DNA of 26,881 nucleotides from a virus. The translations under genes were made by a program, and so were the position numbers. Under the pieces are notes generated by a model. That model was given only the letters and a program-made list of their open reading frames with translations, searched no databases and was not told the origin of the DNA. The stretch lies in the IMG/VR virus record IMGVR_UViG_3300011113_000691, positions 1 to 26,881 of that record; one strand, written 5' to 3'. Of the stretch, positions 6,740-26,416 are shown in pieces; positions within the stretch are counted from its first letter, which is position 1; the number at the start of each line of letters is the position of its first letter.

Positions 6740-7000
6740 ATGAAAAAAATTAAACCTGTTGGCAAATGGATTCTCGCAAACTCTTTAATCGGTGGTCAAA
6801 AGACTACCGAGGCTGGAATCATTTACCAAGAAAAATCTAAGTCTAAAATTATTCCCGCAAAGGTTGTTGCAATCGGAAATAAACTTACTGAAGATATTAA
6901 AGTTGGTGATGTGATTTGGTGGGATGTAAGTAAGATCAAGGACGGATTTGATAGTAGTCACGTTGTCCACCAAGACTGGGTAGAGATGGTTGAGCGTTAA
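6740..7000 (+). CDS. GroES-like co-chaperonin
   Basis: 86 aa, close to the bacterial GroES size of about 97. MKKIKPVGKWILAN matches the first strand of GroES (KPLxDRVLV), TTEAGIIYQE the start of the mobile-loop region (TAGGIIxP), IPAKVVAIGNKL the next strand (GxVVAVGxG), and DIKVGDVIWWD the VKVGDxVL strand. T4 and many relatives encode such a protein (gp31) to adapt host GroEL for capsid-protein folding; the same is inferred here. It follows tRNA-Gln. Its stop overlaps the stop of the convergent hydrolase gene (bases 6997-7000). Confidence 0.82.
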   Translation: MKKIKPVGKWILANSLIGGQKTTEAGIIYQEKSKSKIIPAKVVAIGNKLTEDIKVGDVIWWDVSKIKDGFDSSHVVHQDWVEMVER

Positions 7001-9159
7001 AAAGTGTAAATTCCATTTAATATAATTTTACCATTGGGAATTGTTGAACCAGCTAAAGAGTTAAAATGTAATTTTAATCCTGTAATATTACTCAACGTTA
7101 AACCAGAAACTTTATTTTTAAAATCTGAAGCTAAAAATAATATTGTTCCGGGAATACAGTTCATTGACGAAAGTGAATTAGCATTACCCGTAAACCCATT
7201 TCTATTTTCTACCAATCCAGGCTGATCCATTATTCCAAAATTATTTTGCCGACTGTTTATTGTAGCTGATGTGGCACCACTATTACAAATTAGTTCTAAA
7301 TTAAAATTACAATATAAGTTTGAACTAAAAGTTGGTTTTATTGGATATGAAATCGGCCCAGTATTACTGGTTGAATGAATAATTCCAGCCATTACACCAA
7401 TATAAGAATTACCAGATAAATTCAAAGGTGATGCAGATAAATCATATGTTATATTTTTATTTGTCCCATCATAAACAAATATATATCCAGAATTGCCAGT
7501 ATATCCTGTTGTCATAACTGAAAACGATTCATTAGGATATATTGTAGACAATTGATTTTGCCAAGAGTTTAAAAAGCCTCCTGACAAACCTCGCACTGTG
7601 GTAGCACCAGAAATATTTGTTGTAAATTTATTTGTATTTGAATATCTTTCTATAAATTCTATTTCATTCTCCCCAATTTTAAAAAACAATTGTCCAGATG
7701 CCATTTTTTGTTTTTTATATTCGCTTTCATAATCAAAATTATTTGTATAATAATATTTTTTTATCTTATTTTTAAAACAAATTGAATAATATTGTAATAA
7801 TCTTTCTGCAATTAAATATAATGTGATAGAATCATTATTAAAAGATTTAATGGGATTTGATATAAATGAAGGAGATTCATTTGCTGGCAACTGGAGTACA
7901 CCATTTGGTAAAATTGGAATTGTTGGAAATGTGGGACCAGAAGAAACAGGAGAAAATGGAAATGCCAAATCTTCGTGAGAAAAATATTTTGCCAAGTATC
8001 CTGCCACAAACGTATTACTATTTGCCATTAATTGAAGACTATCATATGTCTCAAGGTCTCTACCATTTACAAAAAAGGTTGGGTAACTATTTGCAGCATT
8101 TCCTATATTAGATCCTTCTAAGCTAGAAATAGCAACAATATCTTGTAAAGAAATATCGGGTAAAGAAGGAATTGAATTATTATTAGTTAATTGATCAACA
8201 AAAGCAGCGATTGAAGCAGCCCCAACACTATGCCCTATTAAAAATATTTTATCAAAATCAATTTTATTGTTAAAAATTCCATTTTCAAATTTATTAGAAT
8301 ATAATTGAAGATGCCTAATAATCATTGCTGGTCTTGATCCAGAAGATGGTGCCGACACATTATCACCAGCTTCTTTACACACACAAATTACCACATAACC
8401 ATAAGATGCAAAAATATTTGCATAGGTATCATAATTCATAAAATTATGATTTTGACCGTGCAGTATTAAAAGTAACGGGCAAGCAGCTAAAGATTCCAAT
8501 TCAGAGGGATAAAAAAATCTTTGAGTTTCATTAGAAAAAAGTCCAGCATTATTTGTGTAAACTTCTAACATTTCATTAAATGAAAAATTTTGTGGACTAA
8601 AAATGTCAATATTTTTCATTGCTACCGAATATGGTCCATTTTGAAATGTATCAAACATCAATTTAAAATCATTTACTATATCTCCATTTTGTAAAGACTG
8701 AGTTAAAATAGGAGAAGAAGTATTTGTTATTCGAAAAATAATTTTATATTCTTTGCATAATTGATAACACTCTTCTTGTGTAGAAATATCACACAAATCA
8801 TCGTGTGTAAGTGTAAATGTTTTGTCAACACCAGATAAACTTTGTCTAAGAATTCCGTCAGATAAATTTGCACTGGATAAAGAATAGGTTTTAATTGATG
8901 CATTTACAAAATTATCATTTCCATCAATTGAGCTACATAAAAAAACTATTAAAGATTTTGTATTAGTATTAATACTTTGTGATGTTACTGTCGGAAGACT
9001 AGCATTTGAAAAAAGTTCATTTAAATAATTTAAATTTATTGCAAAATAAATTGGAGCAGTACATTTAATAGTATCACTAAATGCAAAATCTAATTCATAA
9101 TCTGAAAATACTTTATTTTTTAATACAGAGGTAACAAGTGGATTTATTGTAATTGCCAT
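6997..9159 (-). CDS. Large virion-type protein with alpha/beta-hydrolase domain
   Basis: 720 aa. Residues about 1-220 are beta- and Ser/Asn-rich without a known domain. Residues about 225-400 form an alpha/beta-hydrolase: LLLILHG at 229-235 supplies the oxyanion region, GHSVG at 309-313 the nucleophile elbow with Ser311, FFVNGRD the acid Asp368, and FSHEDLAF the base His395. Residues from about 490 to the end look like beta-rich fibre or adhesin sequence (many S/T/N/G). The enzyme is probably an esterase, lipase or deacetylase acting on host surface polymers. The start overlaps the upstream stop (TAATG), so it is coupled to the 724-aa gene. Virion location is inferred from the late operon. 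Confidence 0.75.
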   Translation of the reverse strand: MAITINPLVTSVLKNKVFSDYELDFAFSDTIKCTAPIYFAINLNYLNELFSNASLPTVTSQSINTNTKSLIVFLCSSIDGNDNFVNASIKTYSLSSANLSDGILRQSLSGVDKTFTLTHDDLCDISTQEECYQLCKEYKIIFRITNTSSPILTQSLQNGDIVNDFKLMFDTFQNGPYSVAMKNIDIFSPQNFSFNEMLEVYTNNAGLFSNETQRFFYPSELESLAACPLLLILHGQNHNFMNYDTYANIFASYGYVVICVCKEAGDNVSAPSSGSRPAMIIRHLQLYSNKFENGIFNNKIDFDKIFLIGHSVGAASIAAFVDQLTNNNSIPSLPDISLQDIVAISSLEGSNIGNAANSYPTFFVNGRDLETYDSLQLMANSNTFVAGYLAKYFSHEDLAFPFSPVSSGPTFPTIPILPNGVLQLPANESPSFISNPIKSFNNDSITLYLIAERLLQYYSICFKNKIKKYYYTNNFDYESEYKKQKMASGQLFFKIGENEIEFIERYSNTNKFTTNISGATTVRGLSGGFLNSWQNQLSTIYPNESFSVMTTGYTGNSGYIFVYDGTNKNITYDLSASPLNLSGNSYIGVMAGIIHSTSNTGPISYPIKPTFSSNLYCNFNLELICNSGATSATINSRQNNFGIMDQPGLVENRNGFTGNANSLSSMNCIPGTILFLASDFKNKVSGLTLSNITGLKLHFNSLAGSTIPNGKIILNGIYTF

Positions 9160-11333
9160 TATAATTCACCTATCAAAATTAAATTTTTACTTGATGTGTC
9201 GTATTTGTATATTTTATTGTTTTTTGAAAAAAACTCACCCGTATTATTATAAGTAAAATTATAATCTTTCAACGATTCAGAAAAAGATTTTTCAAAAATT
9301 AAAGGTTTATATGATAAATTATTATTTATTGAAAATAACAATGTTTGATTATTAAAATTAATAAAGACAAAATTATTTGAAACAAAAATACTTGTTATAG
9401 TGTCATCTAAAATATTTGTAGATATTGGGTATGCAAATTCTGAATTTGGACAATTACTTGGATTCTGTAAATAGGGTTTTGTTGCCACAACACCGATTCT
9501 AATTTTATAATTATTTGACATGGTGCTATTATTAAAAAACGTAGATTCTAATAGAGAAGATTTATCGGAAGAATACATAATTTTTATTAATCCAGAATCA
9601 TTTATATTTGGTGTTGGTGTAGCTAATGAATTTGCGGTGCTTTTATTCCAATCTTGATACTGAAAAGAATCTATATTATTTTCAGCCATATTATAAGTTC
9701 TATACACTCTTATATTTTTTATATTTTCTCCAGTAACTCCTGTCAATATTTGAGAAACATGATATGTATGCGTATCGTTTATGCCAATTTTTGTATTTAA
9801 AACTTCTTCATTTATAAATGGTTTTATGTTATAAAGATTTGGCGATGATGAAGGAACTTCATTATTTTGATTGAATAGGATTAATGAGCCCCTAATAAAA
9901 CTTTTTTCAGCAAAAGAACCAACTATATTTTCATTAAAAAATGTTAATCCAGATGGATTGTATAATCTGATATCACTTATATTTTTACCAAAAATTATAG
10001 GTAAAGTGGGATTTAATCTTAAATAACTTTTATCTTCATAATATTGATTATTTACTTTGTTTATTATAGTAAATTGCTTTACACCAGGTAGAGTTGTTAA
10101 TTCAAAATTTTCAATTAAATAATCATCTGTGGGTGGTAGATGAAAATCATAAAAGGGAAAATCAAGGTTATCATAAACAACTTGTTTTTGAAAATTATTA
10201 GTAACTGCATTTGCAAATGTCCACCCAGGAGCATTTGCTGGCAAATATCTTGGTGAATAAGCATTTATAAAAGATGATTTATAGTTTATCTGATCTTCTC
10301 TTAATGCCAATGTGCTACTTGCAAAAGAATAATTTTTACATTTTAAATCATCAAATCTAAAAACACCACAATCAACAATAGTACTAGATTCTCTCTCTAA
10401 ACTAGATAACGTTGGGTTATTATAACTAGTAAATTGTCTCAAAAATGATTGACCATCAACACCAGATTTTTTAAATACCATCTGTGCGTGAGTTGTATGT
10501 ATTTTTTTAAACTTTTGAGCGTTTACAGATTGATAATTTCTTTTATAATAACACACTAAAGAACTGGCTCCGTATGATACAGCTCTAGTATCATATATAC
10601 TGGGATCTCTTGTAAGATTATTTGTACTAATTGCTAAACCTAAAAAGTCTTTATCAGCTGCAATAAGAGATCCAAAATTTGGGATGTCTTCTGTTATTGT
10701 TTGTAATATATGATTTGTATTAGCATTTACAAAATAGACAGATTTGTTACTTGGGAGAGAAAATATTATATAATTTCCATCATTTGAAATCAAACATTTT
10801 TGATTGTCTGTGCCAGAAAAACCAATTGGTATGGAAACAGATTTTTCTAGTGTAAATTCTATAGTGGGAGAATAAGAAGCCGAGTATAATTTTAATAAAT
10901 TATCTTCAAGCAAACCAACATAAGAACCATCATCAGAAAAAAACGAAACAATAGTTTGTTTTGAATAATCACCATCGCTATAAAAATCTAAATTATTAAA
11001 AAATATTAAGTCTTCTAAAGAATTTGCTATTTTTCCAAAAGAATTCATCCATTCATTTGTTATTGAATTAAAATAAAATATGCCGTGTGGTGTATTTACT
11101 AACTTCCAATTTTTATTAGAAGAATCAATTTTATTTTCAAATAAAGGTTTTTTAATTCCTTTTTCAAACAAAGCACCCACTTTATTTGAAACTGATTCAT
11201 TTAATTTTGAATGATCTTGATTTTTTAATTCATTATAATTTTTAACTATATCTTTTTTTCCAGGTAAATATCTACGAATTGCCGGATCGGTATAACCAAA
11301 CTGATTTAAAAAGTCATCATTGGGGTGTGGCAT
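9159..11333 (-). CDS. Large virion-type protein, unknown fold (propeller-like stretches)
   Basis: 724 aa from ATG 11333. This internal ATG is preferred over ATG 11351 because a CATAAATA late promoter lies exactly 5 bases upstream of it and overlaps the longer start. Several segments read like beta-propeller blades (TIVSFFSDDGSYVGLLEDNLLKLY, QKCLISNDGNYIIFSLPSNKSVYFVNANT); other parts are Asn/Ser/Tyr-rich. No signal peptide or enzyme motif. With the hydrolase protein it forms a two-gene operon, ending in a TAATG overlap, so a tail-fibre or host-recognition assembly is the best guess. Very A+T-rich. Confidence 0.7.
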   Translation of the reverse strand: MPHPNDDFLNQFGYTDPAIRRYLPGKKDIVKNYNELKNQDHSKLNESVSNKVGALFEKGIKKPLFENKIDSSNKNWKLVNTPHGIFYFNSITNEWMNSFGKIANSLEDLIFFNNLDFYSDGDYSKQTIVSFFSDDGSYVGLLEDNLLKLYSASYSPTIEFTLEKSVSIPIGFSGTDNQKCLISNDGNYIIFSLPSNKSVYFVNANTNHILQTITEDIPNFGSLIAADKDFLGLAISTNNLTRDPSIYDTRAVSYGASSLVCYYKRNYQSVNAQKFKKIHTTHAQMVFKKSGVDGQSFLRQFTSYNNPTLSSLERESSTIVDCGVFRFDDLKCKNYSFASSTLALREDQINYKSSFINAYSPRYLPANAPGWTFANAVTNNFQKQVVYDNLDFPFYDFHLPPTDDYLIENFELTTLPGVKQFTIINKVNNQYYEDKSYLRLNPTLPIIFGKNISDIRLYNPSGLTFFNENIVGSFAEKSFIRGSLILFNQNNEVPSSSPNLYNIKPFINEEVLNTKIGINDTHTYHVSQILTGVTGENIKNIRVYRTYNMAENNIDSFQYQDWNKSTANSLATPTPNINDSGLIKIMYSSDKSSLLESTFFNNSTMSNNYKIRIGVVATKPYLQNPSNCPNSEFAYPISTNILDDTITSIFVSNNFVFINFNNQTLLFSINNNLSYKPLIFEKSFSESLKDYNFTYNNTGEFFSKNNKIYKYDTSSKNLILIGEL

Positions 11334-11338
11334 GTAAG

Positions 11339-11346
11339 TATTTATG
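11339..11346 (-). promoter_or_regulatory. Late promoter CATAAATA
   Basis: CATAAATA on the minus strand, 5 bases before ATG 11333. It decides the start of the 724-aa protein. Confidence 0.8.
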
Positions 11347-11356
11347 GTCAAATAAA

Positions 11357-16136: not shown

Positions 16137-16208
16137 GCGGATGTAACTCAATGGTAGAGTGCTAGCCTTCCAAGCTTGCTGTTGAGGGTTCGAATCCCTT
16201 CATCCGCT
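16137..16208 (+). tRNA. tRNA-Gly (TCC)
   Basis: The acceptor GCGGATG pairs with CATCCGC, anticodon loop CTTCCAA gives TCC, T-arm GAGGG-TTCGAAT-CCCTT, discriminator T. One T-T mismatch in the anticodon stem. Confidence 0.93.
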
Positions 16209-16210
16209 TT

Positions 16211-16282
16211 TCCACTTTAGCTCAACGGCAGAGCAGTGCTTTTGTAAAGCACAGGTTGCGGGTTCGAATCCCACAAGTGGCT
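16211..16282 (+). tRNA. tRNA-Thr (TGT), mismatched first pair
   Basis: D-arm GCTC-AACGGCA-GAGC, anticodon stem GTGCT/AGCAC with loop TTTGTAA gives TGT, T-loop TTCGAAT. The acceptor TCCACTT pairs with AAGTGGC in six positions but has T against C at the outermost pair, and the T-stem has one C-A mismatch. Still a good tRNA candidate. Confidence 0.88.
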
Positions 16283-16285
16283 TTT

Positions 16286-16367
16286 GCGAGTATACTCAAG
16301 TGGTCAACGAGGACGCGCTGTAAACGCGTTGGCATTGCCTACGGGGGTTCGAATCCCTCTGCTCGCA
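16286..16367 (+). tRNA. tRNA-Tyr (GTA), long variable arm
   Basis: The acceptor GCGAGTA pairs with TGCTCGC, anticodon loop CTGTAAA gives GTA, a GGC-ATT-GCC variable arm marks a type II tRNA as usual for bacterial Tyr, T-arm GGGGG-TTCGAAT-CCCTC, discriminator A. Confidence 0.92.
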
Positions 16368-16370
16368 TTC

Positions 16371-16898: not shown

Positions 16899-17015
16899 AG
16901 GTGATCGGCGTGGTGAGAACACGCAGTCTTGAGAAGAGACGTGCCGGCGTAAAACGGTCTACGGTTAATCGACCGACAAAGCTGGACAAATGGGTTTAAA
17001 TCCCATATCACCTTT
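16899..17015 (+). ncRNA. tRNA-like structured RNA with T-arm, unidentified
   Basis: 117 bases closed by a perfect 7-bp acceptor-like stem, AGGTGAT (16899-16905) with ATCACCT (17008-17014). In order: a 5-bp D-like arm (GCGTG/CACGC), an anticodon-like arm (GTCT/AGAC), a 47-base variable region with a bulged stem (GTGCCGGC with GCTGGAC) enclosing CGGTC/GACCG, and a T-arm ATGGG-TTTAAAT-CCCAT just before the acceptor strand. The order matches a tRNA with an oversized variable arm, but T33 is absent and the T-loop lacks C56. It is separated from the preceding tRNA-like fold by TT, like the tandem tRNAs upstream. The next gene starts 2 bases later. Confidence 0.4.
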
Positions 17016-17016
17016 T

Positions 17017-17634
17017 ATGCATAACATTAATATTCCTCATTTTTATTGCTATTTAAGAAAAGAACACATGTATCAGCATCAAGATCATGTTGGTGAATTT
17101 GACAAAGTTTTGGTATTTGGCGCTCAATCTTGTGCTGGATATGCCATGACTTTTCATGTCATGACTGATTACGGCATTGTACGCAGCCGCGTACCAGTTC
17201 ATATGCTTTGCTGGAAGTCAGACGCCCCATTAATGCCATTAGATCATCTTCAGTTATGGGATTGCTTCCATGAAAATGTATCCATGGTAGAGTATGATGC
17301 TCTTTTTGATTGCAGGGCAAAAGTTGTCCTAAAAGATCATTCTGAACATTGGGGTGATTATGTGATGACCTTTGATTGGTACAGAAATGCCTATTCGGAG
17401 GAACCCACCCAATACAAGTGTCTACACATGATTGCATTGGACAATGGAAACTATACACTTCAGCCAAATAATAGAATTTTTTGGAAAAATATGTCTTTTG
17501 TTACCAAGCCATTCCCCGAGAAGCCTGACTTTAAAGTTGACAACAAGGCTTGGAAGTGCGAAGGAGAAAGTGATCGGTGGATAATCGACGGGCATGACGA
17601 CAATTATTACTATGATATAAAGTCAACTAAATAA
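17017..17634 (+). CDS. Conserved phage protein, unknown function
   Basis: 205 aa from ATG 17017; an ATG at 16990 in the same frame lies in the T-arm of the preceding RNA fold and is not favoured. The pattern IPHFYCYLRKEHMY-x-HQ-x-GEF-x-VFG, HMLCWKSDAP, HLQLWDCF and HKCLHMIALDNGNYTLQPNNRI, as read here, is one I recognise from hypothetical proteins of many phages; the LQLWDCF and ALDNGNxxxQPNNRI blocks are the most constant. No catalytic motif is apparent. No Shine-Dalgarno sequence precedes the start, so it may be translated after RNA processing. Confidence 0.75.
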   Translation: MHNINIPHFYCYLRKEHMYQHQDHVGEFDKVLVFGAQSCAGYAMTFHVMTDYGIVRSRVPVHMLCWKSDAPLMPLDHLQLWDCFHENVSMVEYDALFDCRAKVVLKDHSEHWGDYVMTFDWYRNAYSEEPTQYKCLHMIALDNGNYTLQPNNRIFWKNMSFVTKPFPEKPDFKVDNKAWKCEGESDRWIIDGHDDNYYYDIKSTK

Positions 17635-17639
17635 AAATG

Positions 17640-17931
17640 GTATTGTTGATATTGGATTGAAATGCGACAACACAGGGGTTCAATTCCCCTCGGCTCCATT
17701 AGCCTAACCGAAGGATTCTGCAATTCCTTAGAGATGGCGAGTCAAGTCCCCGTAGCAGCGGGGCAAACCCCGAAGTCCTAGGCTTCGGGAATCTAGGGGC
17801 TGAAATGGCTTCGATTGGCGCAAAGTAATGAAGAAGGAGATACCCGTTACTGGCAACGAGGAACGTGAAACAACAGTTGCAAATTTAATTGCCAACGAAA
17901 TGGCAATGGCTGCTTAAAGCAGTGGGGTTCA
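17640..17931 (+). ncRNA. ssrA: Circularly permuted (two-piece) tmRNA
   Basis: The acceptor piece comes first: T-arm AGGGG-TTCAATT-CCCCT (17674-17690), acceptor strand CGGCTCC (17691-17697), discriminator A 17698, no encoded CCA. After a 97-base intervening segment (17699-17795) with two strong hairpins, the coding piece starts GGGGCTG (17796-17802), which pairs with CGGCTCC, then shows the tmRNA signature GGCTTCGA. TTGGCGCA (17815-17822) pairs with TGCGACAA (17663-17670) as helix P2 with one mismatch. The tag frame from GCA 17879 encodes ANLIANEMAMAA and a TAA (17915-17917), located in the loop of a small hairpin. It rescues stalled ribosomes and tags products for proteolysis. Outer ends are approximate. 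Confidence 0.88.
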
Positions 17932-17964
17932 CCCGGTTTCCCGCATCTGAAAACCGGGCTTTTT
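17932..17964 (+). terminator. Rho-independent terminator of the tmRNA
   Basis: CCCGGTTT (17932-17939) pairs with AAACCGGG (17951-17958) around an 11-base loop and is followed by CTTTTT. The next early promoter starts 3 bases later. Confidence 0.88.
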
Positions 17965-25158: not shown

Positions 25159-25761
25159 TTATTTAGGCTCTGGAGATTCCCCATATTTTTCTAGTGGATT
25201 GTATAACTTTAAATTTTTATGTGTTTTTGCCACACCCCGTGCAAGCTTTTTTACAGCATCATAATCTAAATTATTAAGTTTTGAAAATTGTTTTAGATTA
25301 CTTACGGTAAATATTTCACCAGTATTAATATCTTGAAATGTTGCCGTTTTTACTGGAATAATTTTTTTAGGTTTTGGTTCTTCAAGATTTTCATGTGAAC
25401 CTACACCTTCTTTAACAGCTCGGATTTCTACCGCTGTCCAGCCTTTATAAGTCTTTCGCTTACCATTTAATAGTTCACAAATTTTTACTGGTGTTAGGCC
25501 GTGTTTCTCACCAAACTCTGTCATGCTTTCAAAAAATACTTTTTCTTCAGTACCCACACGTTTTAACCAGTAACCATTATGTTCTTTTACAGGATTAGTC
25601 CAAACCCAATAACGACCCTCTTGTGTAAAAAAACCACCATGTTCCTGAACAAATCTAGCACGATGTTTGGATGCTTTTGAATTATCATTCATCATGGTCC
25701 ATAATTTTGTACCACGATTATTTACTTCATTCCAAACAGTTTTTTCTTCACGATAAGCCAT
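25159..25761 (-). CDS. NUMOD1-like repeat protein without nuclease domain
   Basis: 200 aa. Two segments of about 38-40 residues look like NUMOD1 helix-turn-helix repeats, found in the DNA-binding part of HNH and GIY-YIG homing endonucleases: 73-110 (EKVFFESMTEFGEKHGLTPVKICELLNGKRKTYKGW) and 148-188 (GEIFTVSNLKQFSKLNNLDYDAVKKLARGVAKTHKNLKLY). The first half (SKHRARFVQEHGGFFTQEGRYWVWTNPVKE) contains no recognisable HNH or GIY-YIG residues. It may be a homing-endonuclease relic or a repurposed DNA-binding protein. It overlaps the upstream exonuclease gene by 14 bases. Confidence 0.65.
   Translation of the reverse strand: MAYREEKTVWNEVNNRGTKLWTMMNDNSKASKHRARFVQEHGGFFTQEGRYWVWTNPVKEHNGYWLKRVGTEEKVFFESMTEFGEKHGLTPVKICELLNGKRKTYKGWTAVEIRAVKEGVGSHENLEEPKPKKIIPVKTATFQDINTGEIFTVSNLKQFSKLNNLDYDAVKKLARGVAKTHKNLKLYNPLEKYGESPEPK
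25160..25167 (-). promoter_or_regulatory. Possible late promoter CCTAAATA
   Basis: Minus-strand CCTAAATA, 7 bases before ATG 25152. It overlaps the last codons of the NUMOD-repeat gene (PK-stop), so a coding coincidence is possible. Confidence 0.45.
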
Positions 25762-26416
25762 TTGTTTTTCTATAATCTGTTATTAAATGCTTCAAATGTT
25801 TAACGTATTTAATTGGCCTATCTTGAAAAACTTGCTTTATACCATCCTCACAAGCAATTAAAATAGCAAAATTATCAACAATTATTCCTGTTCTTTCTTG
25901 AAACATTAATGCATATGCACATGCCTGTGCAAAATAATTATCGATGTCTGATTCTCTTTTTTCTTTTGTGCTGGCTTTAAAGTCTATAATAGAGAGTTTA
26001 CCATCATATTCAGCAATACAATCTGTTCTACCAGCAAGACCAAGAGTTTTAGACCATAAAGGTGTTTCAAGAGCAACTATGTTGTCAATTTTATCTAGTT
26101 CAGGTTTTAACAATGAAAATAATGCTTTATTATTTGAATGGAGATTGTCAAAGTCTATATTTTCATTTTTAAGATATTGCTCAATTAAACTATGAAACTT
26201 TGTTCCCCGAGATGTTACTCTTTTGCTTTCCTCTGGATTTTTTTCTCTCCATTTAGCAAAAAAATGTTGTTTGCGAAAACCAACAACAGTCGTTACTGAT
26301 GGAAAAATTCCATCTGGAGTTTCATATAATCGTTTACCTTCAGAACTTACTTCTTTTAAAGTTCCTTCCAGTAAAATTTGTTTATGTGTAAAACTTTTAT
26401 TTGATACTAATGACAT
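25748..26416 (-). CDS. PD-(D/E)XK exonuclease, MGME1/Cas4/RecB-like
   Basis: 222 aa. The motifs of this nuclease group are all visible: VTSRGTKFHSLIEQYL with H75, the GLAGRTDCIAEYDGKLSIIDFKAS block with D132, D145 and K147, and the trailing Q164-x3-Y168 motif in YFAQACAYALMF. Such enzymes degrade single- or double-stranded DNA from an end, using Mg2+; T4-like marine phages commonly carry one among their late or recombination genes. The start ATG 26416 has no Shine-Dalgarno sequence. An ATAAATA-type element lies about 45 bases upstream (26461-26467). Confidence 0.85.
   Translation of the reverse strand: MSLVSNKSFTHKQILLEGTLKEVSSEGKRLYETPDGIFPSVTTVVGFRKQHFFAKWREKNPEESKRVTSRGTKFHSLIEQYLKNENIDFDNLHSNNKALFSLLKPELDKIDNIVALETPLWSKTLGLAGRTDCIAEYDGKLSIIDFKASTKEKRESDIDNYFAQACAYALMFQERTGIIVDNFAILIACEDGIKQVFQDRPIKYVKHLKHLITDYRKTNGLS

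Follow-up and report, generated by a model that had tools for sequence, protein, structure and literature searches.

Known permuted tmRNAs and the phage locus

Permuted tmRNAs are established to arise from one precursor that tRNA enzymes cut in two, the halves remaining paired (Keiler et al. 2000, as cited in PMC9004378 and PMC10085705). In a survey of phage tmRNAs, ARAGORN assigned 53 of 133 unique structures to the two-piece form, 50 of these being aquatic (PMC9004378). The merged Rfam model of permuted tmRNAs, RF04321, has its base pairs confined to the tRNA domain (PMC11915505).

The window analysed here, whose 26,881 bases make up an entire IMG/VR virus record and are probably a phage genome fragment, carries a gene that is a new member of these already known two-piece phage tmRNAs. 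It shares with RF04321 the gene order, the acceptor and P2 pairings, GGnTTCGA and the Ala-Ala end of the tag, but differs in its 8-residue tag and in a conserved pseudoknotted element in the spacer. Among the three older permuted models the best is that of betaproteobacterial tmRNA, RF01850, with which the window shares a tag ending in AMAA; its score of 46.9 bits nevertheless stays below the cut-off of 84, and relatives of the gene reach 30.6–63.3 bits. The marine phages Melnitz and Pelagibacter phage Mosig are likewise T4-like with a permuted ssrA gene, however, Mosig encodes the CCA and has a short spacer resembling one plain hairpin, and the gene of Melnitz is alpha-like, a glutamine riboswitch being predicted for it (PMC9004378). 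Phage RNA with a structure of its own also lies next to a tRNA-like end in the theta ribozymes at gut-phage tRNAs, but these form an HDV-like double pseudoknot, whereas the intervening segment (IVS) of the present gene has a different topology and matches no HDV family.

An earlier note on this DNA, made from the letters alone, had recognized a permuted phage tmRNA, which stands; its reading of the tag and the novelty that it implied do not, the latter because 53 two-piece phage tmRNAs had already been published (PMC9004378), and it missed the structured, swappable IVS. It is the combination of a structured, exchangeable spacer with uniform 8-residue tags that makes the family a variant which we have not found described; a search of the open-access literature, to which it was confined, returned no description of such an IVS element.

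Anatomy of the permuted tmRNA gene

The gene occupies positions 17639–17917 of the plus strand, to which all tmRNA features given below refer. It is delimited by a full-length match to RF04321 (cmscan; 84.8 bits against a gathering cut-off of 47, E = 3.5e-15), and ARAGORN calls a permuted tmRNA (tmRNA*) at the same location. Both checks thus bear out the circular permutation proposed in the earlier note, as they do the placement of the acceptor half upstream of the coding half. The acceptor half comprises the 5' strand of P2 (TGCGACAA, 17663–17670), the T-arm AGGGG-TTCAATT-CCCCT (17674–17690), and the acceptor 3' strand CGGCTCC (17691–17697) with the discriminator A17698. CCA is not encoded after A17698, the bases that come next being TTA, which open a type-1 IVS of 97 nt (17699–17795) bounded by the two acceptor strands. 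The coding half begins with the acceptor 5' strand GGGGCTG (17796–17802), at whose 5' end RNase P cleavage is expected by analogy with known tmRNAs; 3' of this strand sits GGCTTCGA, and further on follow the tag codons and a TAA ending at 17917.

The acceptor strands pair over 7 bp; two of these are G-U pairs, among them G3·U70, which specifies alanine identity. P2 pairs the strand at 17663–17670 with TTGGCGCA (17815–17822) over 8 positions, with a single A·G mismatch. Both pairings agree with the counts originally given, 7 bases with G-T pairs and 8 with one mismatch, and the gene's own terminator, also proposed then, corresponds to a terminator-like hairpin at 17932–17964 (CCCGGTTT...AAACCGGG followed by TTTTT). 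This hairpin was read by eye and is present in the computed fold; it is missing from the consensus scan list because of its 11-nt loop.

Covariation of the tRNA domain

Relatives of the gene were gathered from many metagenomes by means of DNA patterns and of the protein encoded next to it (16990–17634). RF04321 has one match each in 23 of 37 searched records, which extend up to 147 kb, and 22 of these matches lie above the cut-off. With the two gene pieces of 29 distinct relatives set side by side, 94.7% of the cells are paired and both sides have changed at 13 of 20 pairs. The covariation score is 0.294, as compared with 0.131 in shuffled alignments (0 of 500 reach 0.294), and slid controls do not exceed 0.084; since the shuffles ignore relatedness, greater weight is given to these slid controls and to the range of pair types.

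In the acceptor stem 100% of cells are paired, a value that is partly built in, since most alignment rows were chosen by a script demanding at least 6 of 7 acceptor pairs; the double changes, found at two of its pairs, and P2, which lay outside the filter, are unaffected. Acceptor pair 4 occurs as G-C, A-U, C-G and, in L006, U-A. G3·U70 and the discriminator A are invariant in the 29 relatives, of which two features only the discriminator formed part of the extraction filter. In P2 all 8 pairs are doubly changed with 87% of cells paired, and in the T-arm, paired in 99% of cells, double changes occur at 3 pairs. Compensatory changes, whose lack among relatives would have spoken against the original proposal, are accordingly seen in both the acceptor and P2 pairings. 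Taken together, the cmscan E-value, the agreement of ARAGORN and the covariation in relatives exclude a chance match. A possible extension of the acceptor stem by UUAG/CUAA was discarded, its pairing being lost in relatives.

A short tag peptide

Two tag frames are open in the window, one starting at GCC 17891 and one at GCA 17879. The former (17891–17917) reads GCC AAC GAA ATG GCA ATG GCT GCT TAA, that is ANEMAMAA, and the latter gives ANLIANEMAMAA, the tag proposed in the earlier note. We compared 28 distinct tag regions, for which the Ala-Ala-stop ending belonged to the search pattern and the open frame upstream of it did not. The 8-codon frame, starting at GCN (GCC or GCT) and ending in Ala-Ala and a stop, is open in 28 of 28, and yields ANEMAMAA, ANELAMAA, ANQLAMAA, ANYMAMAA, AAPMAMAA, AAPMRMAA, ANRMAIAA and others. 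The frame from GCA 17879, in contrast, is broken by a 1-nt indel in 14 of the 28, with early stops or run-on as a result; a single base between GCA and the codons that follow puts this frame out of register with the conserved end. Furthermore, ARAGORN reads ANEMAMAA in the window, and when the gene is aligned to RF04321, GCC-AAC falls on the model's resume codon, GCa-AAC. The tag is therefore most likely the 8-residue ANEMAMAA encoded by 17891–17914, as judged from frame conservation, and the original reading is not supported. A start at GCA 17879, while still conceivable for genes that, like the window's, have both frames open, is improbable, even though GTTGCA is invariant, ARAGORN gives 12-residue tags in some relatives (L057, L091, L006), and the ACAGUU upstream of GCA resembles the resume context of E. 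coli. A resume point that shifts with the indel, to CAA in the longer form, would retain 12 codons and is a weaker alternative. The short tag corrects the way in which tags in such genes should be read.

The tag end of the beta_tmRNA consensus, GCaaUgGCCGCcUAA, likewise reads AMAA, and this common ending makes a betaproteobacterial host plausible. As a separate observation, in the window (17891–17931) and in relatives the tag codons form the hairpins AUUGCC...GGCAAU and CUGCU-UAA-AGCAG, which appear to covary (GCC/GGC with GCT/AGC; CCGC/GCGG in L078), so RNA pairing may shape the peptide.

Structure of the type-1 intervening segment

The type-1 IVS is a structured RNA with two hairpins whose loops can pair, a near-invariant linker and strong covariation. 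Its conserved core (17699–17764) is recognized by a covariance model, R1, built from the type-1 family itself, with 89.6 bits (E 2.6e-21). For the aligned type-1 cores the covariation score is 0.214, whereas shuffles give 0.110 (none of 500 attains the score) and slid controls no more than 0.075; in the first alignment the score was 0.184, with 0.093 in shuffles.

The core starts with an almost invariant TTAGCCTWA. Hairpin 1 (17709–17731) has its stem at 17709–17715/17725–17731, with double changes at 6 of 7 pairs, and is followed by the linker AYGGCGANNMAAGU (17734–17747), defined by invariant columns of the aligned cores. Hairpin 2 (CCCCG-UAGCAG-CGGGG, 17748–17763; stem 17748–17752/17759–17763) is paired in 99% of cells; its closing pair is G-C, A-U or U-A, and a U·G pair of the relatives is C-G in the window. 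A competing hairpin with CGA/UCG was rejected, being broken in L007, L004 and L062, whereas CCUCG/CGGGG holds. The loop of hairpin 1, CUGCAA (17718–17723), is complementary to GCAG in the loop of hairpin 2 (17755–17758). This CUGC(AA)/(UU)GCAG complementarity is found as CUGC/GCAG everywhere except in L057, which has CUGU/ACAG; one covarying pair together with invariance makes such a kissing contact likely rather than proven. A further pairing, GCC 17702–17704 with GGC 17736–17738, is present in the minimum-energy folds of the 4 type-1 segments tested, and as it never varies it lies beyond the reach of covariation.

Downstream of the core, an optional hairpin 3 (17769–17789) varies in the sequence of its stem with the pairing kept in 8 versions, and is missing in eight relatives (L009, L072, L079, L080, L081, L090, L097 and L100). 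Its palindromic apical letters differ among relatives (CCTAGG, GCTAGC, CCCGGG). CCTAGG also occurs in the marine-type spacers of L048 and L058, and a loop-loop dimer contact is possible.

Distribution and exchange of spacer types

The type-1 motif was matched in 37 viral stretches by one pattern and in 47 by a second, and all distinct matches of the second lie inside permuted tmRNAs. Five matches of the first fall outside any tmRNA: the viral L094 and L101, and L087–L089, the latter being its only matches among 84,980 bacterial and archaeal species, as scanned with an exact pattern that would overlook diverged versions. All five are loose matches that look like chance and were rejected as true type-1 elements. 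R1 gives a single strong match in each type-1 phage record, with none at any other place in it, and no strong match in Mosig or Flavobacterium phage immuto.

The spacers of relatives measure 71–99 nt (type 1), 122–167 nt (type 2) or 5 nt. Type 2 is an unrelated structured element of about 122–167 nt, GGUUAGCGGC...CCUUCCUAACC, found in tmRNAs only and carried by L034, L035, L075, L076, L078, L084, L085, L103 and L104. In L104 (1729–2000) it has extra flanking bases, TTCAAAAC before and GCTTACTTATAC after, and these flanks on both sides suggest GGTTAG...CTAACC as the borders of the element. In twelve records, including L006, the 5-nt spacer TTCAC alone separates the acceptor halves. The coding half of L006 is 92–94% identical to that of type-1 genes, and the coding halves of the type-2 carriers L034 and L035 are 96% identical to that of the type-1 relative L037. 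As spacer types differ on coding halves that are more than 92% identical, one and the same tmRNA backbone has acquired, lost or exchanged the IVS.

Permuted phage tmRNAs of a distinct group (L048, L050, L058, L060, L066, L068) encode the CCA and have a spacer of 99–102 nt closed by a long helix, with other tags, e.g., AANDDYYGDVRLAA in L068.

Proposed maturation and possible role of the spacer

The window gene holds every part needed for maturation of a two-piece tmRNA, and we consider it highly probable that the locus encodes a working permuted tmRNA that is matured by host enzymes from a single precursor, charged with alanine and used with host SmpB to add ANEMAMAA tags. The precursor would be transcribed as one RNA behind the upstream gene (16990–17634). 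Host tRNA enzymes would mature it, RNase P cutting 5' of G17796 and the 3' side being trimmed after A17698 and supplied with CCA; addition by the host is assumed since CCA is absent after A17698 and also after the three tRNAs of the window (16137–16368). The predicted product consists of two RNAs joined by the acceptor and P2 helices, which would be charged through G3·U70 and would transfer first its own alanine and then ANEMAMAA to stalled peptides. The model of the SmpB family (PF01668) gave no match in 22 phage records, of which 9 are longer than 90 kb and most are fragments, although the model detects SmpB in 10 of 14 control genomes, and the partner is therefore assumed to be host SmpB.

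As maturation is expected to remove the IVS, the conserved fold of this segment should either serve at or before that stage or be selfish. Our best guess is that this discarded, modular spacer keeps the precursor folded in such a way that processing during infection is fast and accurate, and we favor such a processing aid over ligand or protein sensing, with self-cleavage in third place. Relatives with a 5-nt spacer show that a structured spacer is not strictly required for such a tmRNA. More generally, we tentatively suggest, while holding it to be short of an even chance, that IVSs are sites at which RNA modules that fold on their own can be exchanged. Type 1, with its kissing hairpins and conserved linker, would then be an undescribed class that actively controls or performs maturation, whether by cleaving itself, sensing a ligand or recruiting a nuclease, and type 2 would be a second such class.

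A conserved linker combined with kissing hairpins is a frequent arrangement in riboswitches, which lends some appeal to a spacer that binds a ligand or a protein, as a riboswitch-like element or a nuclease docking site, and so tunes tmRNA maturation. The ssrA region of phage Melnitz, for which a glutamine riboswitch has been reported (PMC9004378), points the same way. However, IVS types 1 and 2 match no Rfam family at E-values up to 10 in the window and relatives, riboswitches and the glutamine riboswitch (glnA RNA) included, and the position inside the tmRNA gene gives no obvious expression platform, so that such a function is rather unlikely.

Self-cleavage of the spacer would free the tmRNA ends in cis and lower the need for host RNase, and theta ribozymes beside gut-phage tRNAs, proposed to free tRNA ends (PMC10879173), provide a precedent. 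The fold, a compact pseudoknot whose unpaired letters hardly vary (UUAGCCUAA and AYGGCGANNMAAGU), and the placement exactly between both ends to be freed are in keeping with a ribozyme. We nonetheless regard it as quite unlikely: in the window and in type-1 relatives no Rfam ribozyme, among them twister, twister-sister, HDV, hammerhead, pistol and hatchet, is matched at E-values up to 10, an HDV-like topology does not fit, and the 5-nt relatives manage without the element. Twister had been hinted at by GCCUAAC and CAAGUCC, and was rejected since Rfam gave no match and covariation assigns some letters of AAGUCC to hairpin 2; readings as twister-sister, as an HDV-like RNA and as glnA were likewise weighed and discarded.

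The tag-less tmRNA of phage DS6A inhibits the endogenous tmRNA in E. coli (as cited in PMC11915505), and this example, like the lack of an SmpB match in the phage records, could point to a degenerate tmRNA or a decoy that blocks rescue in the host. Such a role is very improbable, because the tag, the stop codon, the acceptor stem and G3·U70 are all conserved in the family despite sequence change.

These findings bear on why phages carry tmRNA and on how permuted tmRNA precursors mature. A large phage family keeps a covarying, swappable RNA fold in a piece that would be discarded, and sister phages with a 5-nt spacer supply a natural deletion control, which together open the spacer's function to direct tests in vitro and in laboratory E. 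coli.

Phage context

The tmRNA gene is borne by an uncultured T4-like phage. This context is firm, as the window is a whole virus record, the neighboring genes are phage-like and the same gene occurs in related virus records of up to 147 kb. The proteins adjoining the tmRNA resemble proteins of T4-like cyanophages, of pelagiphages and of Flavobacterium phage immuto. A DNA search of INPHARED gave matches to tRNAs or the T-arm only, which indicates that a cultured close relative is absent from it, and the plasmid set searched held no match to the window.

Three further observations concern other genes of the record. Two neighboring large ORFs of 720 and 730 aa on the minus strand (6997–11351) are without PHROG or Pfam match. 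The product of the gene upstream of the tmRNA (16990–17634), with 60% identity to a Flavobacterium phage protein, matches PHROG 3704 (ferredoxin), and its relatives are named PurM in several deposited phages, so that the annotations conflict. A candidate HNH/I-HmuI-like homing endonuclease is encoded on the minus strand at 25159–25761, adjoining a PD-(D/E)XK exonuclease gene (25748–26416).
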